The translations under genes and the position numbers were made by a program. From Candidatus Nitronereus thalassa (GTDB lineage Bacteria; Nitrospirota; Nitrospiria; Nitrospirales; UBA8639), in assembly GCF_032191465.1 (NCBI RefSeq), contig NZ_JAQOUE010000001.1, positions 2,480,001 to 2,544,000 of the forward strand: 64,000 nucleotides of DNA, written 5' to 3'. Positions 2,884 through 19,483 of the stretch are shown here, piece by piece (position 1 is the first letter of the stretch; each line of letters starts with the position of its first letter). The notes beneath the pieces were generated by a model. The model was not told the DNA's origin, did not search any database, and was given only the letters and a program-made list of their open reading frames with translations.

Positions 2884-3837
2884 TTACACGGCTTCTTTTT
2901 TGGCTTCGTGGGCGTAGAGGTATTGGTGGGGGACGGGTCGGAGATCCCAGACTAGGCCAAGCCACGAGAGCAGGACGAGTCCATAATAGGTCAAATCAAT
3001 TTCCCACCAGAAAAATCCCTGACGGGCAGATGAGGCGTAATGGTGGTGGTTGTTGTGCCACCCTTCGCCTAGGGTGAGGAGGGCAAGGAACACATTGTTT
3101 CGGCTTTGGTCACTTGTCTCATAGCGTCTCTTCCCGATCAAATGGGAAAGAGAGTTAATCGTGCTGGTGGCATGTAACAAGACCACCGTAGAAATAAAAA
3201 ATCCCCAAATCAGCATTTGCATCCCGTTGGTGCCAAGACCGGGCGCATAATGTTCCAGTAATGTTCCAAGTCCAAAAATTCCCACGGCAAAGAGGAATGG
3301 GATCAAGGTATCAAAACGATTGAGAAACTGTAACTCGGGGAATCTTGAAAAGTCCCCGACCACGTCATGCTTGGTGGAAAAGTTTTGTTTGGAGGTGAGC
3401 CAACCAATTTGACTCCACCAAAATCCGCTTTGATGTGGGGAGTGCAGGTCATTTTTTTTATCCGAATGTCGGTGATGGATGCGATGATGAGCTGCCCACC
3501 ACAGGGGACCCCGTTGGACGGCAGTGGCTCCGACTAGGGCAAATATAAATTGACAGGTCCGAGAGGTCCGAAAAGCGCGATGAGAAAAGTAGCGATGATA
3601 GAATCCGGTGATGGCAAACATTCGAATTCCATACAGTGCCACGGCTACCGCCACGGCAATCCCGCTCCATCCTACCCATAGAACACCAAGACACATGAAA
3701 TGCATGATGAAAAACGGAGCAGACTGTACCCAGTCTATCTGATGATGCTCTTTAGACGTGGGTTTGTGATCAACCGCGTGGGCATCAAACCAACGAATAA
3801 TGGACGTCACGAATTTTGGACGGCTTAAGAAGGACAT
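2884..3837 (-). CDS. Delta-9-type fatty acid desaturase
   Basis: Integral membrane di-iron desaturase of 317 residues that would introduce a cis double bond into acyl chains. All three histidine boxes are present: HRYFSH at 81-86, HHRIHH at 117-122 and HNNHHH near 260. This order and spacing fit the acyl-CoA/acyl-lipid delta-9 (DesC/OLE1) family. Hydrophobic segments flank the boxes at about 40-78, 92-108 and 170-220. It lies 112 bp after the FAD-linked oxidase on the same strand and may be the last gene of a peroxidase-oxidase-desaturase group. Regiospecificity cannot be told from sequence alone. Confidence 0.92.
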   Translation of the reverse strand: MSFLSRPKFVTSIIRWFDAHAVDHKPTSKEHHQIDWVQSAPFFIMHFMCLGVLWVGWSGIAVAVAVALYGIRMFAITGFYHRYFSHRAFRTSRTCQFIFALVGATAVQRGPLWWAAHHRIHHRHSDKKNDLHSPHQSGFWWSQIGWLTSKQNFSTKHDVVGDFSRFPELQFLNRFDTLIPFLFAVGIFGLGTLLEHYAPGLGTNGMQMLIWGFFISTVVLLHATSTINSLSHLIGKRRYETSDQSRNNVFLALLTLGEGWHNNHHHYASSARQGFFWWEIDLTYYGLVLLSWLGLVWDLRPVPHQYLYAHEAKKEAV

Positions 3838-3949
3838 GCATTAACTCCTGTGTTTCTCACAAAAGTCACAAGGTTTGAAAAAGTAAACGAATTGGTCATG
3901 AAGAATCAAGAGGGGCGGGTCTCAAGATGAATGAAAAACTATTCTACCA

Positions 3950-5305
3950 TTATTCGCTTCCAATGGATAGAAGTTCCTGAAAATAATGATTGAACAGTCG
4001 ATTCTGGGGGTCATATCGCTTTCGGGTTTCCTCAAAGGTGTTCAGCCTGTCTCCAAAGGCCTTTCTGGCCTGGCCTTGGGTAATGCCATAACTTTGGTTA
4101 AAGAGTGGCACGCCTCCATGGTCACTACAAAACTCGTTGTAAGCCAGCAGGAACTCTTTCCACCCTGGATCGCCAGTTGAAACGGGATCAATACTGACCA
4201 CTGGTTCATGAAACGAGTACGAGAATAGGGACTGTTGGTCCTGGGCAATCCGGTATCCCACATTAAGCATATTGCATCGATACCTATTTGATCGGTAATA
4301 GGCCCGGCAAAATTGAAAGTAGTCCCGCAGGGTTTGGAGAAAGGACTTTTCTGGAAATGCCCAAATACTGAAGGTATAGCGGCTCATTCCAGATTTTTCG
4401 GGATATCGGATAATTTGATCCGTGGGGCTCGTATGCGGACTTCGAAGAATATAATTCATGGAAAATCGAAGCAGTATTCCAAAAGTATCCAAGATGAAAT
4501 AACGGAGCCCCTTTATGGGAACCAATTTCGTGACAAGAAACGCGAACAGCGGTGAAAAATTTTTCCACACAATATTCCTCGCCCACCAGACGAATCGAGA
4601 TGGGGCCCGGTCATTCCGGTCATGATATTTTCTAAATTCAATGGTAATTTTGTTATCGAAGGGCCATAAGTACATCATGATGGCTTCGGGTTTACCAAAA
4701 ATGGCGGGAAGCGATTGGGCAAAATCTTCAAGATCAAAGGTCTCATGATAGACGGCCATGGACTGTAGGGGTCTAATGCGAAATGTCGCTTCAAAGATAA
4801 CACCCAACAATCCATAACTGGAGCGCATGATTTGTAACAGGTCAGGCTGGGCTTCCGTGACTTCAAGCACTTCACCTGATGGTAAAACGAGTTTCATCCC
4901 TGCGACATAGGAAGCCACCTGTCCCCATTCCCCAGGCATGGAGGAATCCTTGGTCCCACCACATGCCGCGCTTCCTATGGATAGATTGCCAAGTTCGACG
5001 TTTACATAAAATTGCAGGCCCTGTTTCTCCAGTTCCTTGGCCACGTCAATATAAAGAGCCCCGGCTTGGGCGGTGACGGTATCCGAGCCGATCGACACAA
5101 TCTTATTCATGCCGGTCATGTCGATATTGGTTCCCTCATTCGCCACGGCGCACCGAGTGGTGGAATGATTGGACCCCGTGGCGCGAACGGGGCTTGGATA
5201 CTTCGAGGAATCAGTGAGGACTCGAACGATATCATCGACCGAATGTACGGTAACGACCTCCTTGGGGTGAGAAAGCAAATCCCCAAACCAATTTCGTTTT
5301 TCCAT
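3950..5305 (-). CDS. FAD-linked oxidase (aldonolactone oxidase / VAO family)
   Basis: A 451-residue flavoprotein. The N-terminal half is an FAD-binding type 4 (PCMH) domain: VRATGSNHS (about 40-48), whose His is where this family often attaches FAD covalently, then NIDMTGMNKI, a Gly-rich GSAACGGTKDSS stretch and the SSYGLLGVIFEATF element. The C-terminal half resembles the D-arabinono-1,4-lactone oxidase domain and ends with a DPQNRLFNHYF motif. No signal peptide is seen, so it is probably cytoplasmic or membrane-associated. It is 27 bp downstream of the peroxidase gene, suggesting one transcript. The true substrate is unknown; a sugar lactone, alcohol or lipid-derived alcohol is possible. 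Confidence 0.88.
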   Translation of the reverse strand: MEKRNWFGDLLSHPKEVVTVHSVDDIVRVLTDSSKYPSPVRATGSNHSTTRCAVANEGTNIDMTGMNKIVSIGSDTVTAQAGALYIDVAKELEKQGLQFYVNVELGNLSIGSAACGGTKDSSMPGEWGQVASYVAGMKLVLPSGEVLEVTEAQPDLLQIMRSSYGLLGVIFEATFRIRPLQSMAVYHETFDLEDFAQSLPAIFGKPEAIMMYLWPFDNKITIEFRKYHDRNDRAPSRFVWWARNIVWKNFSPLFAFLVTKLVPIKGLRYFILDTFGILLRFSMNYILRSPHTSPTDQIIRYPEKSGMSRYTFSIWAFPEKSFLQTLRDYFQFCRAYYRSNRYRCNMLNVGYRIAQDQQSLFSYSFHEPVVSIDPVSTGDPGWKEFLLAYNEFCSDHGGVPLFNQSYGITQGQARKAFGDRLNTFEETRKRYDPQNRLFNHYFQELLSIGSE

Positions 5306-5332
5306 AATAAGATCCAGCCGAATGCCTAGACG

Positions 5333-8230
5333 CTACTCGTTTCTGAAAAATGCTTCGTCATCTTCGGCTCCAGGTCGTGGTTTCCAATCTAATGAGTAGT
5401 ATTCTCCACGATCCCGAGCCCAGGGATCGAAGGCGTTGACGACGTGTTCCAGCTCTCCGCTCAATTCAGGCATCGTTCGGAGAAGGATGCGCTTCATCGG
5501 CAACATTTCTTGCTCATGATCATTGGGCTTGCCCTTTTCCATGACTTTTCCGGTCGGTCCATTGTCATTGACCCAATCCACCCCTAAGTAAGAATAAAAC
5601 TCGGGACGAAAGCTGGACGTAAAAAACCGATCGCTGTACAACCGGCGAGAGGCGTTGAGAATAAACACCACAAACTGTGTTTCGGAAATGGCGAATCCAT
5701 GCGGGCGTGTGGATTCAGCCAAATAGCCCACAATCGTATCCACGTCCTCAATATTATCCACAACCGTACCATCTGGATGACCCAAACAATCATTGATGGG
5801 AGATCCATCATCGTTTACCTGAGATTGGGTAATGATCTTCGAGGCATCACAGCGGTGCTGGCCATAAACCTCGCGCAAGGCTTTCACGAGTTGTTCCTGC
5901 TCCTCACGCGCGGGTGAATCTGCAGGCAATCGTTCATCATTAAAGTCGTTAAAACTCGTCAATTGTTTGAGAGCATATTGTCTTCGAAACTCGTTGTATC
6001 GTGGAATCCCGCGTTCGCGATCTCTAATGAGGTCCAACGCGGCCACGTCGATTTTGTGTGTCGAAGAGTTCAGATGAGGGATCGTCAAATTTTGCAAAAA
6101 TTGTGGATGGTTCTGCAGTGTGAGTAGGCCTAATCGTTGACGGCCTAAACTTGTCGCCCAATTGGCCAATCCCCGACTCCGCATGGCTTCCGTCGCCTTA
6201 GCGCGAAAGGTGTCCACCACTGGCACTTTTTCTTTGACCACATTGGGGTTCGAAAGTTCTCGGTATTCTAAAAGGTCCGGTACTAAGGGGTGCAGCCGAT
6301 ACACGGAGATAAATTCTTCAGGAAAGTTAAAGGGTGATCCAAAGTGATTCACGCCTCCGTTCACATGATCGGGATTCGTCAGATCCCAAACATCTTCTTT
6401 GAGCGGAAACAGTCCTGACAGGACCGTCTTCCCTCGGTAGCGTTCGTTTCCAAGACCGAAAATTCCTGGGCCAACGGCAAAAACCGAATACCACGTAGTT
6501 TGTTTCTTCGAATTTTCCGATTCCCCAAAATTATTCACCACGACTTGTTCCAAGGCTTTAGCGACCAGAGGGTGCTCGGCGAACAGGCCACTCCAGTTGG
6601 AATTCATGCCCTTGTACAGGGCCTCGTTGTAGAGTAGCTGGGTGGTCCATTCGATCGTATGAATTTTCGCAATCTCGGCTGACACCACAAGGCGTGCGGC
6701 TTGATAGAGTTCTTCCGGGGTGACGTCTTTATAAGCAATGACCGTATTGGGGTTCACAGGATTTCGTAGCCCGGAATCTTCATCTGGAGTGTTTGCTGCG
6801 CGTTTCCGGAACTTCTCCACAAAAAGATTATGCTCACGAGCGAATACGTTATGAAGAAAACTCAAGCCCACGGTCCAGTTATCCGGAAAGGCTGCGGCTT
6901 CTTGACCTTGCCAGGCGTCATGCATAGGATCGGAGGAGTCCATCAATGGAAGATAGCCCAACTCGTTGGATGGGTTTCCTTGTGTATTTCTTTCAACCAA
7001 CAATAGTTTAGCGGGGTCGGAGGGATCTCGTTTCACTCTTTGTAGAGAGGTCTGGTCGTACCCGTAGAGTTGGGAAGCATCCCACCAGGCCGTCACATGG
7101 TTGTGAAAAGTCTTTGGTGCTCGCGTCAGATATGATTTCTGATTATGGGTAAAAGTTTCAGGTTCGCTGTCTTCAGCAACTAGGGTTTTCCCGATGGCAT
7201 CGCCGGGTCGGCATCCCAGTTGGGAAATGTCCTTGTCCGATAAGGACCTTCCTCCGAGATCCGTCCTACACCCAACTGTCATTGATTCGGGATGGTTGTT
7301 GCCTTCATCTAAATGCGCGAACCAGTCGTGGGTCATAAATTGAATCCAATATGCCGCAAGTACATTGAAGAACGGGGCCTTCTTGTAATCGCAATTGGCC
7401 TCTTTGGAATATCCTTCCAAGCCCGAACCCTCTTGGCATTTCGAGGGGTCAGACTGTGTGCGGGTGAAAAGCTTTCTGCTAATGATTTGAGGATCAGGCG
7501 TTAACAGTCCGATGCGTTCGCCATGTCGGTTGCGGATCAATTCCGTGCGGCTCAATTCGGAAAAGGTCTCATCGAATTCCACATTCCTGGCAAAGAGCAT
7601 TCCCGTCGAGCCCATCAAGGGATTTTTGATATCGTTACAAATTCCCATAAGTGTTCGCTGGCGAATGAGTTCCCCTTGGCATAGTTGACCACTTTCTGTG
7701 GAGACATCTTGAAAGTGGGGATGCCCTGCGGGCAGTTGCATTTCAGGCCAAGTTTTGAGGGCAGGACCGTCAATCCCTTCACGACCTTTAATATAATGTT
7801 CAAAGGTACGGCTATTGTCATAGAGGTTAAATTTAATTAATCCGATCCGCTGAAGTTCCAGATCAAGGAGGGCGCCGTTAATGCCTCGTCCATTGGGACT
7901 CAACGGCCCAGTGCTTTTTATAATCCCTTCTCTTTTGGAAGTGGCGTCGCCCACGGCATAGTAATTGGCCCAGTCGTTCCATGGGGTGTCGCGTTGCGCT
8001 GCCGCTTCGGTTCCGCCGCGACACAAAGCGGTCTGTTCGGAGACTTTTCCCAGGAATCGGTTTTCCCGTTTTTTCGCCAGTGTGAGAACACCGGTGACGA
8101 GTTTTCCCTTGCAGCTCTCTAGAGAAATTTTTTCTTCTTTCCGGCTCCCATCGGTCACGCATCCGAACAAAAGGGAAAGAGGTAATATGCATGCGAGTAG
8201 CAACGAGCGACCAGTAGAAGTATTCTTCAT
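5333..8230 (-). CDS. Animal-type haem peroxidase, secreted lipoprotein
   Basis: A 965-residue member of the animal haem peroxidase superfamily, which includes cyclooxygenase, fatty acid dioxygenases and bacterial peroxidases. A lipoprotein signal peptide ends in LLFGC (Cys about 24), so it is exported. The distal haem region is MTHDWFAHLDEG (about 297-308), followed by LTRAPKTFHNHVTAWWDASQ, WTVGLSFLHNVFAREHNLF and, near 646, the proximal-His block EEFISVYRLHPLVPD. An N-terminal region of roughly 200 residues precedes the catalytic core and is not recognised. It heads a minus-strand group with the FAD oxidase and the desaturase. Family knowledge supports a peroxidase or lipid dioxygenase; which one cannot be decided here. 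Confidence 0.9.
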   Translation of the reverse strand: MKNTSTGRSLLLACILPLSLLFGCVTDGSRKEEKISLESCKGKLVTGVLTLAKKRENRFLGKVSEQTALCRGGTEAAAQRDTPWNDWANYYAVGDATSKREGIIKSTGPLSPNGRGINGALLDLELQRIGLIKFNLYDNSRTFEHYIKGREGIDGPALKTWPEMQLPAGHPHFQDVSTESGQLCQGELIRQRTLMGICNDIKNPLMGSTGMLFARNVEFDETFSELSRTELIRNRHGERIGLLTPDPQIISRKLFTRTQSDPSKCQEGSGLEGYSKEANCDYKKAPFFNVLAAYWIQFMTHDWFAHLDEGNNHPESMTVGCRTDLGGRSLSDKDISQLGCRPGDAIGKTLVAEDSEPETFTHNQKSYLTRAPKTFHNHVTAWWDASQLYGYDQTSLQRVKRDPSDPAKLLLVERNTQGNPSNELGYLPLMDSSDPMHDAWQGQEAAAFPDNWTVGLSFLHNVFAREHNLFVEKFRKRAANTPDEDSGLRNPVNPNTVIAYKDVTPEELYQAARLVVSAEIAKIHTIEWTTQLLYNEALYKGMNSNWSGLFAEHPLVAKALEQVVVNNFGESENSKKQTTWYSVFAVGPGIFGLGNERYRGKTVLSGLFPLKEDVWDLTNPDHVNGGVNHFGSPFNFPEEFISVYRLHPLVPDLLEYRELSNPNVVKEKVPVVDTFRAKATEAMRSRGLANWATSLGRQRLGLLTLQNHPQFLQNLTIPHLNSSTHKIDVAALDLIRDRERGIPRYNEFRRQYALKQLTSFNDFNDERLPADSPAREEQEQLVKALREVYGQHRCDASKIITQSQVNDDGSPINDCLGHPDGTVVDNIEDVDTIVGYLAESTRPHGFAISETQFVVFILNASRRLYSDRFFTSSFRPEFYSYLGVDWVNDNGPTGKVMEKGKPNDHEQEMLPMKRILLRTMPELSGELEHVVNAFDPWARDRGEYYSLDWKPRPGAEDDEAFFRNE

Positions 8231-8775: not shown

Positions 8776-8817
8776 ATGATTTCTTGGTCCGAATATTTCC
8801 GTAGTTGGAACAGGTCC

Positions 8818-10200
8818 ATGCCATTCAAACCCTTAAAAATTGAAGATTTGCGAATCGGACACTATGTCAAGCTAGAGTGTTCATGGTGGAGGCACCCTTT
8901 CGCCAAAAACATTTTTAAAGTTACCACCGCAGCTGAACTCCGCCTTATAAAGAAAATATCAAAACTTACGTTGTTTTATGATCCTGAGCTTTCGGATACC
9001 GGCTCGGAAATAGAAGAAAAACCACCAGAGGGTCAAGGATATTCCTTTCCTGGATCTTCTGCGCAGGTGAGTGGAGATCAAAAGGTTCACTTATTTGATG
9101 CAGAGCGCCAAGATAGAGAGGAAGAAGCCAAAGAACATAAGATCAGGGTTCTGGCGGAGGATCGCGGAAAGCGGCGCGAAGCTTATCGAGAACGGAGAAA
9201 CCAACTCAAGAAAACGGAACGGGCTTATGAAGACGCGGCAAAACAAACCAAAATTGCTCTCAAAAATATGGCATCCGGTGATATAGCCGGGTTACGCATG
9301 GCAGAAAATTTGCTATCGGACTTGACCAAGTCGTTGGGGGAGGACCGAATTGTCATGGCCCTTCTCGAGGTGATGAACTCTAAGGATACTGAAGATCCGC
9401 TTTTTGTTCATGCCATGAATGTCTGTGTCCTTTCGATGTTGGTGGGAAAAATCATGGGACTATCAGGAAAAGATTTGACGACATTAGGATTGGGCGCGTT
9501 GGCCCATGACATCGGATATCTCAAAATTCCGCGAGCTGTGTGTTTAACCACAGCTGGATTTGCGAGGGAAGGAGCAAATTTAAAACTCCACATTGAGGCA
9601 GGTCTTTCCGGAATTGGACGAATTCCTGAGTTTCCGGAACCCGGGATACAAATCATTGCGCAACATCATGAACGTCTTAATGGTCGGGGATATCCCCATG
9701 GACTCACCCGAGACCAAATTTCCCTTTTAGCCAAAATTGTGATGATTGTCGATGAGTACGATGAGCTGTGTAACGGTCAGGACGACGAGGAAGGGTTGAC
9801 TCCTTACGAAGCACTCTCCCTCATGTATAAAAATGCCACGGTAAGGAAAACGGGAGAATTTGATGAGGAAATTCTGATTCTCGTCATCAAAACCCTGGGA
9901 GTCTATCCGCCAGGAACATTGGTGGAATTGAATGACGGGTCGATCGGGGTGGTCATTAGTATCAATCCTCAATGCCGAACAAAGCCGCAGGTTATGATTT
10001 ATGAGTCTGATGTTCCGCAGGATGAAGCCGTCATTGTCGATCTATCTCAAGATGAAGAATTATCCATTGAAAAAAGTCTTCGTCCTCAGGAGATCAGTAA
10101 AGTAGCAAAAAACTATCTTTGCCCAAATCGGGTTACAGGTTTTTTCCCTTCTTCATCTGAAATTTCACTTTTCTCACAAGCCAGACAGGCAGTTTCCTAA
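8818..10200 (+). CDS. DUF3391 plus HD-GYP domain protein, first of tandem pair
   Basis: A 460-residue protein; the start MPFKPLKIEDL at 8818 is preferred over ATG at 8776 because the paralogue downstream begins with the same residues. The N-terminal 60 residues match DUF3391 (CSWWRHPF core). A charged Lys/Glu-rich linker follows (about 80-150). The C-terminal HD-GYP-like domain has HDIG near 228, the HHE motif near 282 and NGRGYP. HD-GYP proteins normally hydrolyse c-di-GMP. Here the Lys that usually follows HDIG is Tyr, and DG before the GYP motif is NG, so catalytic competence is open. The closing 60 residues form an extra domain shared with the paralogue. Confidence 0.88.
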   Translation: MPFKPLKIEDLRIGHYVKLECSWWRHPFAKNIFKVTTAAELRLIKKISKLTLFYDPELSDTGSEIEEKPPEGQGYSFPGSSAQVSGDQKVHLFDAERQDREEEAKEHKIRVLAEDRGKRREAYRERRNQLKKTERAYEDAAKQTKIALKNMASGDIAGLRMAENLLSDLTKSLGEDRIVMALLEVMNSKDTEDPLFVHAMNVCVLSMLVGKIMGLSGKDLTTLGLGALAHDIGYLKIPRAVCLTTAGFAREGANLKLHIEAGLSGIGRIPEFPEPGIQIIAQHHERLNGRGYPHGLTRDQISLLAKIVMIVDEYDELCNGQDDEEGLTPYEALSLMYKNATVRKTGEFDEEILILVIKTLGVYPPGTLVELNDGSIGVVISINPQCRTKPQVMIYESDVPQDEAVIVDLSQDEELSIEKSLRPQEISKVAKNYLCPNRVTGFFPSSSEISLFSQARQAVS

Positions 10201-10423: not shown

Positions 10424-11779
10424 ATGCCTTTTAAGCCTTTGAAAACAGAAGACCTTGCTCAAGGAATGTTTGTGAAGCTGGATTGTTCCTGGTGGCGGCA
10501 TCCCTTTGCCACGAACAAGTTTAAGGTCACCTCTCAAAAAGATTTAGAAACCATAAAAAAAATTACTAACCTAAAACTGTTTTATGATCCCAACCTCTCC
10601 GATGTATTACCTCCCTCGGAAGAAGATCCCGACAGTTCCGTTACAGCCAGAGAAATAGTTCCAGAAGTAGCTCCAATTCCAGAAAGTCCTGTGGAGGCAA
10701 AAGTAGAGAGAGAAGAGGATTCGGATATACTTCCTGGAGATAGGAAAGAACGCACAAAGGCGTTTAAGGAACGGCGTGATCAGATCAAACGCTCGGAAGA
10801 GGCCTATCAGGAATCCACCAAGCAGGCCAAAGTGGCGCTCAAGAATTTGTCGGCAGGGGATCCCAGGGGCCTACAAAGTGCGGAAAAAATTTTAACGAAC
10901 TTGACGAAATCTTTGTCCAGCGAACGAACACTCATGGCACTTCTCGAAGTGATGAACTCAACAGAAATTGACGATCCGTTGTATTTTCATGTGATGAACG
11001 TCTGCGTGTTGTCCCTCCTTGTAGGAAAAGAATTGGAGCTCGAACAAGCAGACCTTATGCACTTAGGACTGGGGGCGTTGTCTCATGACATCGGGTTTTT
11101 GAATCTCCCGAGGCAACTCCGTCTGACCAAGCCAGGATTTGTGCATCAAGCGGCTGATCCTTCTCTCCATATCGAGCAAGGATTGAAAAGCGTGTTGAAA
11201 ATGGAGGATTTTCCTGAAGCCAGCATCAAGATTATTGCTCAACATCATGAGCGGCTCAATGGGAGTGGTCATCCCAATCAATTGGCTGGGGATGAGATTT
11301 CCCTGTTAGCTAAAATCGTCATGGCTGTCGATGAATACGATGATCTCTGCAATAACCCCAATCGCCAGCAAAACCATACTCCGTACGAAGCTCTTTCTCA
11401 GCTGTATAAGAATGCGTCTGTCAACCAAACCGGGGAATTCGATCCCAATATTCTGGTTGTTCTCATAAAGGCGCTTGGTGTTTATCCTCCAGGAACGGTG
11501 GTCGAATTGAGCGACGGTTCCGTGGGTGTTGTGGTGAGTATTAATTCCAATACTAGAACCAAACCTCAAATAATGCTCTACGTTCCCAATGTTTCCTATG
11601 ACGAAGCCGTCATTGTGGATTTGGCAAAGGAAGAAGGCTTGACGATTCAGAAAAGCTTAAAGCCTAAGGAATTGAGCCGGGCCGTCCGTGAATACTTGAG
11701 CCCTCATCGAGTGACGGGATACTTCCCCTCTGCCGTGGGAATATCTGTGGGAGCGTCGCCTCAACCAGTGTTGAGATAG
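10424..11779 (+). CDS. DUF3391 plus HD-GYP-like protein, second of tandem pair
   Basis: A 451-residue paralogue of the preceding protein, similar along its full length, with the greatest divergence in the charged linker (about 65-115). DUF3391 at the N-terminus has the same CSWWRHPF core. The HD domain keeps HDIG but is followed by Phe, and the GYP motif reads GHP (NGSGHP). The HHE motif is intact. It starts 223 bp after the first copy, so it may have its own promoter. A likely reading is gene duplication with the second copy drifting toward a binding or regulatory role. Confidence 0.88.
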   Translation: MPFKPLKTEDLAQGMFVKLDCSWWRHPFATNKFKVTSQKDLETIKKITNLKLFYDPNLSDVLPPSEEDPDSSVTAREIVPEVAPIPESPVEAKVEREEDSDILPGDRKERTKAFKERRDQIKRSEEAYQESTKQAKVALKNLSAGDPRGLQSAEKILTNLTKSLSSERTLMALLEVMNSTEIDDPLYFHVMNVCVLSLLVGKELELEQADLMHLGLGALSHDIGFLNLPRQLRLTKPGFVHQAADPSLHIEQGLKSVLKMEDFPEASIKIIAQHHERLNGSGHPNQLAGDEISLLAKIVMAVDEYDDLCNNPNRQQNHTPYEALSQLYKNASVNQTGEFDPNILVVLIKALGVYPPGTVVELSDGSVGVVVSINSNTRTKPQIMLYVPNVSYDEAVIVDLAKEEGLTIQKSLKPKELSRAVREYLSPHRVTGYFPSAVGISVGASPQPVLR

Positions 11780-12741: not shown

Positions 12742-13977
12742 ATGGAATTGTTTGACATTCTTGCTATCGTTATCAGCCTGACCGCTGGCTTTGCCTACCT
12801 CAACCATCGATTCATTGGGCTGCCCGTCACCATCGGCGTGATGGTCATTGCCTTGTTAGCCTCGTTACTTCTTCAAATAATTGATCTTGCCGGCTTGCAC
12901 CTCGGGGATCATGCGGCGCGGTGGCTCTCTAGCATTGACTTCAATGCCACGCTCCTTCATGGCATGCTCAGCTACCTTCTCTTTGCGGGAGCCCTGCACG
13001 TCAAACTCGATGATTTGCATGAACACAAATGGACTATTGGAATATTAGCTACGGTGGGGACGGTGGTCTCGACCTTTTTAGTGGGGACAATAACCTGGTG
13101 GGTACTTGGACTGTTGGGCGTCGCGCTCCCCTTAGTCATGTGTCTGGTGTTCGGAGCCCTCATTTCCCCAACCGACCCTATTGCCGTTCTGGGGATTTTA
13201 AAAAATGCCAAAGCACCCAAAAGTTTGGAAGTAAAGATTACCGGGGAGTCATTGTTCAATGATGGTGTGGGGGTGGTGATCTTCCTCGTCTTGGCGGAAA
13301 TCGCTACAAGCACGCATGAACCCACCATGAGTCATATGGCAGGACTCTTCGCCCAAGAAGCCATTGGTGGCACGCTTTTTGGTTTAGCCTTGGGGGCGCT
13401 AGGCTATGGCCTGCTTAAAAGCATCGACCAATACCAGGTAGAAGTCATTATCACCTTGGCGCTGGTCACCGGTGGCTATGCTCTGGCCGATGCCCTACAT
13501 CTTTCGGGGCCGATTGCCATTGTGGTAGCGGGCCTGGTCATTGGGAATCAAGGGCGCCGTTTCGCGATGTCTGAAAAAACTCGGGAACATCTGGATGTGT
13601 TTTGGGAACTGCTCGATGAAATCCTGAATGCGGTTCTCTTTGTACTGATCGGCCTGGAAGTGTTGGTTCTCACTTTTACCCAAGAATATCTGCTCGCAAG
13701 CTTAGCGCTTATTCCCTTAATTTTGCTTTGTCGCTTGGTGGCCATCGGATTGCCCATGACCCTGCTTCGTCGGGTGCGCACATTTTCGCCTGGTGCGATC
13801 TGGCTGATGACCTGGGGCGGACTACGTGGGGGAATCAGCGTGGCCTTAGCCTTATCGTTACCAACGAGCCCGGAACGAGACGTGATCCTAGCGATCACCT
13901 ATGCGGTAGTCGTGTTCTCCATTGTGGTCCAAGGATTAACTATGGAGAAACTGGTGAAACGCCTGTCCGTATCCTGA
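12742..13977 (+). CDS. NhaP-type Na+/H+ antiporter (CPA1)
   Basis: A polytopic membrane protein of 411 residues with about 12 hydrophobic segments. Diagnostic CPA1 features include ISPTDPIAVLGILK near 145, the ion-binding GESLFNDGVGVV near 170 with its Asn-Asp pair, and a Gly-rich TWGGLRGGISVALAL near 355. It would exchange cytoplasmic Na+ or K+ for protons. It lacks the long cytoplasmic tail of eukaryotic relatives. No strong ribosome-binding site is visible before the ATG at 12742. Confidence 0.92.
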   Translation: MELFDILAIVISLTAGFAYLNHRFIGLPVTIGVMVIALLASLLLQIIDLAGLHLGDHAARWLSSIDFNATLLHGMLSYLLFAGALHVKLDDLHEHKWTIGILATVGTVVSTFLVGTITWWVLGLLGVALPLVMCLVFGALISPTDPIAVLGILKNAKAPKSLEVKITGESLFNDGVGVVIFLVLAEIATSTHEPTMSHMAGLFAQEAIGGTLFGLALGALGYGLLKSIDQYQVEVIITLALVTGGYALADALHLSGPIAIVVAGLVIGNQGRRFAMSEKTREHLDVFWELLDEILNAVLFVLIGLEVLVLTFTQEYLLASLALIPLILLCRLVAIGLPMTLLRRVRTFSPGAIWLMTWGGLRGGISVALALSLPTSPERDVILAITYAVVVFSIVVQGLTMEKLVKRLSVS

Positions 13978-14047
13978 AGGCGTTCGGTGGAGTAGTTGGA
14001 GACAATTAAGAAAGCCAGCCTAAATAATGTTCTGATCGAATTTCGTC

Positions 14048-14284
14048 CTATGATGACTCTCTTTTGGATCGCTCTACCCGAGACTCAAGCATAGCTTCTT
14101 GTACGGTCGTACAGGGGTCTAACAGGGCTTTGGTCAAGGCGTCCATGGCTTGCTGGGCGTGTTGAGTCTCATGCGGGTGGCGCTCCCGAGGGGGGTGAAG
14201 TTTCTTGCTCGCTGTGGGTTTCTTCCGATTCGCTAATCCTATCTGCATGGTCTGGGCCAGTTGCGCTCGTGGGTCGAGTGTCAT
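14048..14284 (-). CDS. Small uncharacterised protein
   Basis: A possible gene of 78 residues starting MTLDPRAQLAQTMQIG, with AAAGG six bases before the ATG at 14284 (a longer form would start at 14311). It is Gln-, Arg- and Lys-rich with no membrane segment or known motif. It sits in the gap between the antiporter and the glycosyltransferase, on the opposite strand. It could be spurious. Confidence 0.35.
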   Translation of the reverse strand: MTLDPRAQLAQTMQIGLANRKKPTASKKLHPPRERHPHETQHAQQAMDALTKALLDPCTTVQEAMLESRVERSKRESS

Positions 14285-14493
14285 AATGCCTTTGTGTGTG
14301 TAAGCCCCCATGGGCCGTGGGTGAGTAAATGGTTCTCACTGACGAGGTACGCAAGGGTCGTACCAGAATTCCTAATTCAGCGCGGTAGTTGGGCTACACC
14401 AAAAACTATGATGCCTAGAGGACCTTTCCTCGCTCAGGAATTCATCGGCTATTCGCGCGACAAAAAAGAGTCATAATTTTGGCAACATAAGTC

Positions 14494-15654
14494 ATGGACA
14501 CCGACACCATTAATTTCATTCTTGCCATTCTCAGCGCGGGGTTTTGGCTGCCGATCGGCATTCTTCTAATTTTGAAGAGACATGCCTTGACTGTGTTGGC
14601 CTCGTTGGATGAGGGGCCTACTCAGAACTGGCCGAAAGTCACCGTGGTTATCCCGGCGAGAAATGAAGAACGCAATGTGAACCAAGCGCTCCAGTCAGTT
14701 TTAAGGCTGGATTATCCTGACCTGCAGATTGTGGTGGTGAATGATCGGTCCACGGATGGAACCGGAAGCATTTTGAAACAATTGGCGGAACAGGATCCCC
14801 GGCTAACGCTCATGCATATTCAATCGTTACCGGACGGGTGGTTGGGGAAAACCCATGCCCTTCACATGGCGGCTCGGCAGGCGCTAGGAGAGTTTATTCT
14901 TTTCACCGATGCGGATATCGTGTTTCATCCTTTGGCACTTAGAAAAGCCATGAGCCATGTTCAAGCCAACCGGTTGGATCATCTCACGGTGGTACCGGAA
15001 GACACCATGCCCGGGTTTTTTCTCAGATCGCTCTCCGCGACCTTTGGGATCTTCATGTTTATGCTGTTTCAACCCTGGAGGGTACGAAATCCGAAAAGCC
15101 GACGGTACATGGGCATAGGAGCGTTCAATCTTGTCCGAACCTCGGTCTATCGGGCCATCGGTGGCCACCAGGCCATTGCACTGAGGCCTGATGACGATCT
15201 CAAGTTGGGAAAATTGGTGAAGCTGAACGGCTTTCGGGCGGATGTGCTCAATGGCCAAAGTATGGTTACAGTGGAATGGTACCGATCCGTACCCGAATTG
15301 ATTCAGGGTTTGATGAAAAACATGTACGCCGGAATGGAGTATCGCCTGTCGCTGGTGATTTTGGCGACCATTGGCTCTTTACTGTTTCACATTTGGCCGT
15401 GGATCGGGATGTGGGTGACCACAGGAGTCCCGCAAATCTTGTATGCGCTCACAGTACTCATGATGGTCGGAAGCTTTGGGATTGCCATGGCGCCACACGG
15501 AGTCAAACCTTGGCAAGGGTTACTCCTTCCCCTGACCATTAGTCTGTTGGTGTATATCCAGTGCCGAGCGACCATTTTGACTCTCTGGCAAGGAGGCATT
15601 TACTGGAGGGAGACCTTTTATACCTTGAAGGCTTTGAAAAATAATAAAGTCTAA
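14494..15654 (+). CDS. Membrane-anchored family 2 glycosyltransferase
   Basis: A 386-residue GT2 enzyme. An N-terminal membrane segment (about 5-27) is followed by the GT-A domain: VTVVIPARNEERNV near 50, VVVNDRSTDGT near 80, the DxD-like FTDADIVF near 136, and an acceptor-site region with RPDDDLKLG near 233. Two to three membrane spans lie at the C-terminus (about 288-375). This architecture is shared with CrtQ- and HpnB-like lipid glycosyltransferases, so a lipid acceptor is plausible. No neighbouring pathway gene narrows the substrate. Confidence 0.87.
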   Translation: MDTDTINFILAILSAGFWLPIGILLILKRHALTVLASLDEGPTQNWPKVTVVIPARNEERNVNQALQSVLRLDYPDLQIVVVNDRSTDGTGSILKQLAEQDPRLTLMHIQSLPDGWLGKTHALHMAARQALGEFILFTDADIVFHPLALRKAMSHVQANRLDHLTVVPEDTMPGFFLRSLSATFGIFMFMLFQPWRVRNPKSRRYMGIGAFNLVRTSVYRAIGGHQAIALRPDDDLKLGKLVKLNGFRADVLNGQSMVTVEWYRSVPELIQGLMKNMYAGMEYRLSLVILATIGSLLFHIWPWIGMWVTTGVPQILYALTVLMMVGSFGIAMAPHGVKPWQGLLLPLTISLLVYIQCRATILTLWQGGIYWRETFYTLKALKNNKV

Positions 15655-15787
15655 TATCCCAAGCATCTATTTGTCAGCCTCAAAGCGAAAAATTAGGATT
15701 CCGGTTCCTTTTTGTAGACATGTGAGAATCAATAACCTCGACGTCAATTTCCAGTAAGAAATTTTGTTCCTTTTCCCCATCGCCCAC

Positions 15788-16964: not shown

Positions 16965-17933
16965 ATGACCCTCCCCGGTATCGACATTGATGTAAAAGAA
17001 CTTATTGGCCTTCGCCATCAGGTGGGGGCCTTGGAGGTGACGTCTCGCAAGCGGGCACTGTCGTTATTAGCTGGGGGCCAGCTGTCTCCCTTTAAAGGGC
17101 GAGGGATCGACTTTGAAGAAGTTCGCCGATACCAAGCTGGTGATGATGTTCGCCATATGGATTGGCGAGTGACGGCGAGAACCGGACATCCGCATTTAAA
17201 ACTCTTTCGCGAAGAACGTGAGCGTCCGGTGTTATTTCTCGTGGACTTTAGTGTCTCCATGCTGTTTGGAACCAAAGTCGCGTTTAAATCCGTTGTGGCA
17301 GCCCAAGCGTCAGCATTATTAGCCTGGGTCTCCATGAAAAAAGGAGATCGGGTCGGGGCGGTCTTATGTTCTGAATCAGGGCACCAAGAACTTCGTCCGG
17401 CTGGTGGTCGGGGAAGTGTGCTTCGACTCATTCATACGATGTCGGCTCTTCATACCGTGGCGAGATCTACGGGAAAGCAGGGGCTAAATTCTGAATCGCC
17501 ATTGTCCTCGGCCTTGAAACGGATCATTCGAATTACTCGGCCAGGAAGCCAAATTTTTCTTGTCAGCGATTTTGCGGGTTTGGATGCTCAATGTGAATCT
17601 GCCATCGCTCGCTTGGGTGTCCATAACGAACTTGTCTGTATCATGCCCTTCGATTCATTGGAAGCAACACCTCCTCCTCCGGGAATGTATAAGGTCAGTG
17701 ATGGTATACGGTCGACGTGGCTAGATACAGGCCATGATCAGACCGTGGCCAAATATCGTCAGCAGTTTCAGGAACGCCAGAACAAGATCCAAACCTTGTG
17801 TCTCAAGTCCGGCTTGGGATTTTTCACCTTGGCGACCAACCAATTTGTGCCGGACGGCGTGCGTGATGGCTTGAGACAAGTGAGTGCCAGGCGTTGGTAT
17901 CACCATGCCGGGACCTACAGCAAGATGGGTTGA
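16965..17933 (+). CDS. DUF58 protein
   Basis: A 322-residue protein that carries the DUF58 signature GRGIDFEEVRRYQAGDDVRHMDWRVTARTG (positions about 46-75) followed by a VWA-like fold beginning LVDFSVSM. The Asp-x-Ser-x-Ser-like metal site is partly retained as DFSVS. The family is found next to MoxR and is thought to act with it in envelope stress or protein maturation. It stops directly at the start of the next gene, so the two are translationally coupled. Confidence 0.93.
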   Translation: MTLPGIDIDVKELIGLRHQVGALEVTSRKRALSLLAGGQLSPFKGRGIDFEEVRRYQAGDDVRHMDWRVTARTGHPHLKLFREERERPVLFLVDFSVSMLFGTKVAFKSVVAAQASALLAWVSMKKGDRVGAVLCSESGHQELRPAGGRGSVLRLIHTMSALHTVARSTGKQGLNSESPLSSALKRIIRITRPGSQIFLVSDFAGLDAQCESAIARLGVHNELVCIMPFDSLEATPPPPGMYKVSDGIRSTWLDTGHDQTVAKYRQQFQERQNKIQTLCLKSGLGFFTLATNQFVPDGVRDGLRQVSARRWYHHAGTYSKMG

Positions 17934-18422
17934 ATGATGAATGGTGCCTCGGATCCGCTGAGTGACTTGCGGGATATTCATCTTCCAGACCCCGTGTCGT
18001 TTTGGCCTCCTGCGCTTGGATGGTGGATCGCTTTGATCCTCGTCATGGGTCTGATCCCTCTTTCAATATGGGCCTTTCGAAAATTTCGAACACCCAAGGC
18101 ATTGCGAACCGCCCGTCATGAACTCCAAGGATTGCGCGAATCCTACGCAGCGAATCAACAAGATCATACTCTTACGATTGGGGTGTCCCGTCTTCTGCGT
18201 CGATATGCTATCGCGGTCTATGGACGAGAACGGGTCGCTGGCCTCACGGGTGAAAAATGGCTAACTTTTCTCAATGAAAAAGGACAAACGAACCAATTTA
18301 CGGATGGCACAGGAAGGGTATTGGTCTCGGTACCCTATGGTAGTCACGAACCGGTTCAAGGACAAGAGTTGATCGCTGCCGTGGAACATTGGCTCCAAGG
18401 GAACCGGAGGCCGAAACCATGA
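17934..18422 (+). CDS. DUF4381 membrane protein
   Basis: A 162-residue protein with a short N-terminal segment (LRDIHLPDPVSFWPPALGWW), one membrane span at about 28-50 and a cytoplasmic tail of mostly helical sequence. DUF4381 proteins are regular members of MoxR-Bat operons between DUF58 and BatA, as here. ATG at 17934 follows the upstream stop immediately and its stop overlaps the next start (ATGA), so translation is tightly coupled. No catalytic motif is present. Confidence 0.88.
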   Translation: MMNGASDPLSDLRDIHLPDPVSFWPPALGWWIALILVMGLIPLSIWAFRKFRTPKALRTARHELQGLRESYAANQQDHTLTIGVSRLLRRYAIAVYGRERVAGLTGEKWLTFLNEKGQTNQFTDGTGRVLVSVPYGSHEPVQGQELIAAVEHWLQGNRRPKP

Positions 18423-19483
18423 TGGAGTTTGCCTGGCCCTGGGTGTTAGTCGGTTTGTTGCTTCCATTTGTGGTGAGGTATGTGCTTCCTCGTGCGACAC
18501 CCCTGAAATCCGAATCTGCCCTTCGTGTTCCATTTTATCAAGCAGTCACGGAGGGGGAGGGCGGGCATGTTCTTCAGAAATCCTCTCCCCTACAATCTGG
18601 AATATTTTGGATGGCCTTCTTGGTGTGGACCTGTCTGGTGATCGCGGGGGCTCGACCGCAATGGGTGGGTGATCCCATTGCCTTACCAGTAAGTGGACGA
18701 GATGTCATGTTGGCGGTGGATCTTTCCGGCAGCATGGAAATTCCCGACTTTGCCTTGAATGGGGAAAAAGCCAATCGTTTGCAGGTGGTGAAAGAGGTGG
18801 CCGGAGAATTTATTCAACGTCGCAAGGGCGATCGCCTCGGTCTGATTTTGTTTGGATCGAAAGCCTATCTACAAACACCACTGACCTTTGACCGACAGAC
18901 TGTCCAGCAAATGTTGCGAGAGAGCGCCATCGGTTTGGCGGGAAAAGAAACAGCCATTGGCGATGCGCTTGGATTGGCGGTGAAGCGGTTTCAACATCAA
19001 TCCCAAGACCATCGCATCCTCATCTTGCTCACGGATGGATCCAACACCGCGGGAGAGGTGGATCCCATCCAAGCTGCGAAACTGGCGGCTAAGGAAGGTA
19101 TTCGCATCCATGCCATTGGCGTGGGATCGGATTACATGGAAATGGACACGATGTTTGGGACGCGCGTGGTCAATCCAGCCAGTGACCTGGATGAAAAGAC
19201 GTTGAGTACCATCGCAGAACTCACCGGAGGCGTCTACTTCCGTGCTCGCGATACGAAAGGGCTCGAGACGGTGTATCAACAACTGGATCAAATTGAGCCG
19301 GTGATTACAGACACAGAGTATTTTCGCCCTATTACGGATTTATATGTGTGGCCATTAGGGGTAGCGATGATGCTGTCAATGTTGATGTCGGTAAGGCATC
19401 TCGGTCTGCGCAATCCTTTTTCGAAACGGGAAAAAGTCGAATCATTGAGTGGAGCATCGTTGTCGAAGGTGGCAATTGGATGA
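18419..19483 (+). CDS. BatA-like von Willebrand A membrane protein
   Basis: A 354-residue protein; ATG 18419 overlaps the upstream stop and has GGAGG eight bases before it. Two membrane spans lie at about 5-22 and 60-80, then a VWA domain with an intact MIDAS (AVDLSGSM near 100, TDGSN near 200) and a last span near 320-340. BatA is the metal-ion-binding VWA component of the aerotolerance (Bat) set. The stop overlaps the BatB start (ATGA). Confidence 0.92.
   Translation: MMEFAWPWVLVGLLLPFVVRYVLPRATPLKSESALRVPFYQAVTEGEGGHVLQKSSPLQSGIFWMAFLVWTCLVIAGARPQWVGDPIALPVSGRDVMLAVDLSGSMEIPDFALNGEKANRLQVVKEVAGEFIQRRKGDRLGLILFGSKAYLQTPLTFDRQTVQQMLRESAIGLAGKETAIGDALGLAVKRFQHQSQDHRILILLTDGSNTAGEVDPIQAAKLAAKEGIRIHAIGVGSDYMEMDTMFGTRVVNPASDLDEKTLSTIAELTGGVYFRARDTKGLETVYQQLDQIEPVITDTEYFRPITDLYVWPLGVAMMLSMLMSVRHLGLRNPFSKREKVESLSGASLSKVAIG

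Follow-up and report, generated by a model that had tools for sequence, protein, structure and literature searches.

A long, exported haem protein of the alpha-dioxygenase group and an optional flavin-oxidase neighbour in Candidatus Nitronereus thalassa

Plant and cyanobacterial alpha-dioxygenases (alpha-DOX), such as those of rice (4kvj), Arabidopsis (4hhr) and Calothrix (CalDOX), are haem proteins of about 600 amino acids (aa). Alpha-DOX-like sequences have been reported in Cyanobacteria, Proteobacteria, Actinobacteria, Acidobacteria and Bacteroidetes, and the two characterised cyanobacterial enzymes act best on saturated C10-C16 acids, with C12:0 being maximal for both (PMC8720084). In this study, we analysed a window of 64,000 nucleotides from Candidatus Nitronereus thalassa (contig 1, NZ_JAQOUE010000001.1, positions 2480001-2544000; genome of 4.0 Mb), which encodes a 965-aa haem protein, a flavin adenine dinucleotide (FAD)-linked oxidase and a fatty-acid desaturase. 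The initial annotation had grouped these three genes into a possible lipid oxidation pathway. We find that the trio is no pathway and that the pair formed by the haem protein and the flavoprotein represents a novel form of the oxylipin-type gene sets of bacteria. The dioxygenase reading is well supported, the link to the flavoprotein moderately so, and the link to the desaturase not at all.

The 965-aa protein has in common with plant and cyanobacterial alpha-DOX the fold, the haem ligands, the catalytic Tyr, the carboxylate-binding His/Arg and Thr, and the channel Phe/Ile/Ala. It belongs to a family, hereafter the long clade, that differs from these enzymes by its length of about 950 aa, by its export through a lipoprotein or Sec signal, by forming a separate clade (support 100/100) and by its gene neighbours. 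Members of this clade also resemble the cyanobacterial 10S-dioxygenase (10S-DOX) system, where a haem dioxygenase of the cyclooxygenase (COX) superfamily is associated with a catalase-related hydroperoxide enzyme; however, 10S-DOX is close to COX, whereas the present family lies on the alpha-DOX side and the window has no catalase-related gene. PMC13049297 reports that a catalase-related hydroperoxide lyase converts the product of the cyanobacterial linoleate 10S-dioxygenase, which provides a precedent. Extracytoplasmic oxylipin formation in bacteria is also known from the periplasmic oleate diol synthase of Pseudomonas aeruginosa (PA2077/PA2078, RoxA-like di-haem proteins), and RoxA-like cytochromes adjoin several long-clade loci, but PA2077/PA2078 differ by an unrelated fold, a c-type haem and mid-chain oxygenation.

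The features of the haem protein are as follows, all on the minus strand.
5333-8230, minus strand: gene for the long exported alpha-dioxygenase-type haem protein, a lipoprotein of 965 aa (PF03098 at 3e-66; PDB profile, structure and tree)
8159-8161, minus strand: codon of the lipobox Cys24 (LLFG/C), read from the sequence
7328-7330, minus strand: distal haem His301 (rice H157), conserved in 47/47 sequences
6659-6661, minus strand: His524 (H311 of rice alpha-DOX, carboxylate binding), followed by W528 and T529; 47/47 conserved
6299-6301, minus strand: catalytic Tyr644 (rice Y379), 47/47 conserved
6290-6292, minus strand: proximal haem His647, 47/47 conserved
5642-5644, minus strand: Arg863 (R559 of rice alpha-DOX, carboxylate binding), 47/47 conserved

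A single-sequence search of the PDB returned plant alpha-dioxygenases as the best relatives (6e-55), and with a profile of 47 sequences alpha-DOX reached 2.4e-78, the next family being lactoperoxidase at 2.4e-7. In 47 sequences, we compared column by column the positions of rice alpha-DOX listed for catalysis and for the fatty-acid channel (PMC8720084). Eleven of the 13 positions are invariant (Q297, H301, H524, W528, T529, F640, Y644, H647, F856, A860 and R863), and the remaining two, F853 and I857, are conserved in 45/47; W528, T529, F856 and A860 are equivalent to rice W315, T316, F552 and A556. The AlphaFold model (mean pLDDT 74.6) has alpha-DOX as its top fold matches (Foldseek 2.2e-22 to 4hhs), and by VIA rice alpha-DOX (4kvl) scored Z 24.4 (3.1 Å, 563 residues) against about 19-20 for peroxidases and 16-19 for COX. 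Among PF03098 families, the protein is thus nearest in sequence to alpha-DOX, and it retains the Tyr, both haem His, the carboxylate residues and the fold. We therefore assign it to a long, exported subfamily of the alpha-DOX group, with a predicted alpha-dioxygenase activity.

The phylogeny points in the same direction, though not decisively. The long family (100/100), the plant alpha-DOX and a group of short bacterial proteins including CalDOX come together in the best tree at 94/92, just under the usual level and with long branches, while peroxidases and COX remain outside the alpha-DOX side, each on a branch supported at 100/100. The true peroxidase of this genome (C2:326431) sits in the peroxidase branch, and murine COX-2 with the COX-like protein of Nitrosomonas europaea forms the other; the 965-aa protein groups with neither. 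The plant and COX-2 sequences of the tree were transcribed from HMMER alignments, 10S-DOX is absent from the sequence set, and the Calothrix protein was judged to be CalDOX by its residue numbers (H131, H290, W294, T295, H361, R529 and others match PMC8720084). The initial annotation had placed the haem protein in a superfamily that contains fatty-acid dioxygenases and had called for its phylogeny against dioxygenase and peroxidase branches; profile, residues and structure assign it to the alpha-DOX side, and the tree agrees, at a support that is not decisive. Separately, the genome's other PF03098 protein, the plain peroxidase at C2:326431-327936 (L001), is encoded near a DCC1-like thiol oxidoreductase.

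That the haem protein is an exported lipoprotein, as had been suggested, is borne out by its N-terminal signal MKNTSTGRSLLLACILPLSLLFGC, which has a clear lipobox (LFGC, Cys24). The starts of long-clade proteins, read by eye, carry a lipobox, a Sec-type signal or an N-terminal anchor, so an extracytoplasmic location is the rule. A scan with one genome per species gave 198 stretches encoding relatives, and the best 80 are 57-85% identical over nearly full length. They come from about six phyla: Nitrospirota, Acidobacteriota, Beta- and Gammaproteobacteria, Gemmatimonadota, Desulfobacterota and a metagenome-assembled genome of Sulfurovum. Nitrospirota, Gemmatimonadota and Desulfobacterota are not among the five phyla listed by PMC8720084. 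Of the 147 genomes searched in the order of the window's genome, to which Nitrospira relatives also belong, 12 in addition to its own encode the long form. The dioxygenase frame of the sister genome (G001, L030:1102-3972) is broken by a TAG; the coverage of that contig is very low (0.67), and a mistake in the sequencing could account for the stop.

We clustered and annotated the gene families found around the long dioxygenase. Among 80 loci, we counted catalase-related proteins at 26 (partly matches to the c2b family, which resembles catalase-related proteins), DyP-related proteins at 22, and three uncharacterised families, c1, c2b and c4, at 26, 26 and 23. GMC oxidoreductases (8), large cytochromes c (7), RoxA-like proteins (6), Tle1-like lipases (6), P450 (5), the FAD oxidase (5), patatin (3), lipoxygenase (3) and COX-like proteins (3) are less frequent. 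The catalase-related gene directly follows the dioxygenase in 17 loci checked, the aligned segments being 33-339 bp apart, and in the PDB its product matches the coral allene oxide synthase-lipoxygenase protein best (4e-11), above true catalases. Neither c1 nor c4 has a significant Pfam match, and c2b (about 400 aa, A4) has none in Pfam or PDB. In N. europaea the gene order is COX-like, lipoxygenase, long dioxygenase; a lipoxygenase was found in 0/199 other sampled Pseudomonadota. Because the neighbours comprise catalase-related, lipoxygenase, COX-like, P450, phospholipase, RoxA-like and GMC proteins, these loci are best interpreted in terms of lipid-hydroperoxide (oxylipin) chemistry, and the proposed lipid-oxidation role of the haem protein gains from the recurrence of such enzymes near it. 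In the window's own genome, searches for catalase-related proteins and for lipoxygenase, both run without a positive control, found none, and a literature search on the gene set of the long dioxygenase returned nothing.

Several of these loci are worth describing on their own. A single stretch of N. europaea (L085:6596-22582) encodes the COX-like protein (4e-70 to COX-2), the lipoxygenase, the long alpha-DOX, a GMC oxidoreductase, a large cytochrome c and a DyP-related protein. In the Nitrospirota genome G103 (L170:610-9858), a 1741-aa fusion of a shorter-type alpha-DOX with a lipoxygenase is encoded ahead of a patatin-like phospholipase and a FadL-type porin, and the long dioxygenase lies 5-8 kb from the fusion. 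A Rhizobium phaseoli plasmid (L169:2765-7262) has a catalase-type domain fused to a shorter-type alpha-DOX, then a RoxA-like cytochrome c. The CalDOX gene is itself plasmid-borne (Calothrix pCAL6303.01, L167), with GMC oxidoreductase and patatin-like genes downstream. Locus L080 carries the c1, c4 and c2b families at 13884-14339, 14383-15696 and 17236-18435, each of them being present in more than 20 of the 80 loci.

Downstream of the haem protein gene lies that of the flavoprotein.
3950-5305, minus strand: FAD-linked oxidase of the aldonolactone/alditol-oxidase type, 451 aa, no signal peptide (FAD_binding_4 2e-19, ALO 6e-7)
5165-5167, minus strand: His47 in the motif GSNHS, probable covalent-FAD attachment site, invariant in 8/8 homologues

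This protein has the VAO fold and is nearest to an ancestral galactonolactone dehydrogenase (GLDH, PDB match 1.5e-24) and to alditol oxidase; its model (pLDDT 80.8) gives a fold match of 4e-21. FAD_binding_4 and ALO domains above their cut-offs, together with the histidyl-FAD motif, identify a VAO-type aldonolactone/alditol oxidase, and His47 is probably the histidyl-FAD site, with the flavin covalently bound. While these domains, the motif and the fold are shared with aldonolactone oxidoreductases and alditol oxidase (8qmy, 2vfr), identity over the fold is about 16%, and sugar-lactone oxidase (NCBIfam TIGR01678) was rejected as the exact label (93.6 bits against a cut-off of 396.8).

Close homologues of the FAD oxidase occur in 3/147 genomes of the order, its own included, and in 4/297 Acidobacteriota. 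The sister genome has the order of the window, with the FAD gene coming after the dioxygenase. Among Acidobacteriota, the FAD gene is downstream of the dioxygenase at a distance of about 40 bp in L118 and about 12 bp in L100; in L109 the two genes diverge, about 0.5 kb apart, and in L124 it is located upstream, beyond a gene for a Tle1-like lipase. It was found at 4/19 acidobacterial dioxygenase loci against a background near 1% (P about 4e-5, the loci being non-independent). An obligate partnership was rejected: across the 297 Acidobacteriota, the FAD gene and the dioxygenase are each found in 4 genomes, overlapping only in the genome chosen as the centre. Two FAD genes away from a dioxygenase (L163 and L164) stand in the same gene set (GMC, DyP-related, c1, c4, c2b), two others (L150 and L162) have a large cytochrome nearby, and the copy in G025 (L149) has none of these neighbours. 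Since the FAD oxidase is also found inside the same gene set without the dioxygenase, we consider it a rare, optional member of this wider set, and there is moderate support for it being a genuine partner of the dioxygenase. Signal peptides are missing from all FAD-oxidase homologues whose starts were read, and likewise from the catalase-related and lipoxygenase proteins. Either the products of the dioxygenase would therefore need to be taken up into the cell, or the enzymes would operate in parallel. Hence the initial proposal that the flavoprotein oxidises an alcohol product stands in part: it is a recurrent neighbour, but its direct action on the product of an extracytoplasmic dioxygenase is doubtful.

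The third gene proved to be a different case.
2884-3837, minus strand: acyl-CoA (SCD1-like) fatty-acid desaturase, 317 aa, a bystander (FA_desaturase 1e-19, His boxes)
3838-3913, minus strand: region upstream of the desaturase, kept in the sister genome, where it has no FAD gene (blastn)

The three open reading frames are indeed all on the minus strand at the coordinates first given, with intergenic gaps of 27 and 112 bp, and match An_peroxidase (PF03098), FAD_binding_4 with ALO, and FA_desaturase above the curated Pfam cut-offs; as the frames are open and close homologues exist, these are real genes. A scan for promoters and terminators was uninformative, the sites being no more numerous than in shuffles. 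The desaturase is complete and of the delta-9 acyl (SCD1-like) type, with an SCD1 match at 2.8e-26, PF00487 and three His boxes (HRYFSH 81, HRIHH 118, HNNHH 261). It is present in 145/147 genomes of the order, most of them without a dioxygenase. The 91 other dioxygenase loci, which total 1.57 Mb and include some duplicates, all lack it. The sister genome has the desaturase on another contig, beside trmE, gidA and atp genes, with different downstream genes and no FAD gene upstream. Homology to that block is restricted to 2884-3913 (blastn 81%) and then ends, so that synteny breaks between 3913 and 3950, i.e. between the upstream region of the desaturase and the FAD gene. The dioxygenase-FAD block of the sister genome is homologous up to 8243, beyond which the upstream flank differs and has a transposase-like gene. 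As the two blocks are separate in the sister genome, they were joined or separated by a rearrangement within the genus. The desaturase is a housekeeping gene and a chance neighbour of the pair. Just past it, at 49-2000 of the window, a CGNR zinc-finger protein and a phage-type integrase are encoded in DNA of slightly low GC content, possibly an island edge. On the other side of the locus, 8776-10200 and 10424-11779 hold closely similar tandem genes of 474 and 451 aa; the first encodes DUF3391 and HD domains (HD-GYP type), the second having been compared by eye only.

Altogether, we consider it probable that the locus encodes an envelope-lipoprotein alpha-dioxygenase with an optional flavin-oxidase partner and an unrelated desaturase; the reaction, substrate and product of the dioxygenase are predicted. 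Several observations weigh on the other side. The long clade is about 300 aa longer than known alpha-DOX and about 28-30% identical to them, its function being predicted from sequence, and the single alpha-DOX group is supported just under the usual level. Most long-clade loci lack the FAD oxidase, which has no signal peptide while the dioxygenase is extracytoplasmic, and most Nitrospira loci have no recognisable lipid genes directly beside the dioxygenase, G103 being an exception. The same protein could be a plain exported haem peroxidase (peroxicin-like) detoxifying peroxide at the envelope, its likeness to alpha-DOX reflecting the shared superfamily fold only. The PF03098 match, the distal Gln/His and proximal His common to peroxidases, and the match of mammalian peroxidases to the fold (Z about 19-20) would fit, but the profile search favours alpha-DOX by 70 orders of magnitude, the carboxylate residues (H524, T529, R863) and Tyr644 are invariant, and the genome's true peroxidase lies on a separate 100/100 branch; we therefore regard it as unlikely.

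A fatty-acid dioxygenase of other position specificity (10S-DOX or COX-like, mid-chain), coupled to a catalase-related hydroperoxide lyase or allene oxide synthase, has much the same low probability, if anything slightly lower. The catalase-related protein at 26/80 loci, usually the next gene, and its coral allene oxide synthase match argue for it, as do the 10S-DOX precedent (PMC13049297) and the use of mid-chain hydroperoxides by known catalase-related enzymes (abstract of PMC5617202). Against this, every residue by which alpha-DOX positions the carboxylate close to the Tyr is conserved, and the COX-like proteins form a branch of their own. The original proposal of a single lipid-oxidation operon, with the desaturase supplying unsaturated substrate, is very improbable. 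Although strand and spacing favour it, the desaturase was rejected as a pathway member, being near-universal in the order, mostly without a dioxygenase, unlinked at all 91 other loci when the trio was sought in other genomes, and separated in the sister genome with its upstream region kept and no FAD gene. The supply argument also falls because the characterised cyanobacterial alpha-DOX prefer saturated acids (PMC8720084).

For the alpha-dioxygenase with its optional partner, the following mechanism can be proposed. A free fatty acid would be held by His524/Arg863, and a haem-generated tyrosyl radical at Tyr644 would abstract a hydrogen from its C2. Addition of O2 would give a 2-hydroperoxy fatty acid, to be converted into the Cn-1 aldehyde by decarboxylation or into the 2-hydroxy acid by reduction. 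The FAD oxidase would probably oxidise the alcohol or hydroxy product once inside the cell, which is the weakest step, and a rearrangement would have brought the desaturase gene beside the pair. More tentatively, the long clade may be part of a phylum-spanning, modular oxylipin system across the envelope, in which the lipoprotein alpha-dioxygenase would act on membrane-derived fatty acids and interchangeable second enzymes (a catalase-related synthase, P450, lipoxygenase, RoxA-like cytochrome, GMC oxidase or flavoprotein) would convert the hydroperoxides or aldehydes; in that case the flavoprotein would be of the aldonolactone-oxidase type and dedicated to lipid products.

Little is known about bacterial oxylipins. 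An active long clade would mean that nitrifiers, methanotrophs, Acidobacteriota and others have an exported enzyme of plant-type alpha-oxidation, and the gene sets around it would resemble eukaryotic oxylipin cascades. They would then offer testable enzymes with which these bacteria may signal through lipids, produce fatty aldehydes or remodel their membranes, as well as evidence bearing on the bacterial ancestry of the alpha-DOX and COX cascades.

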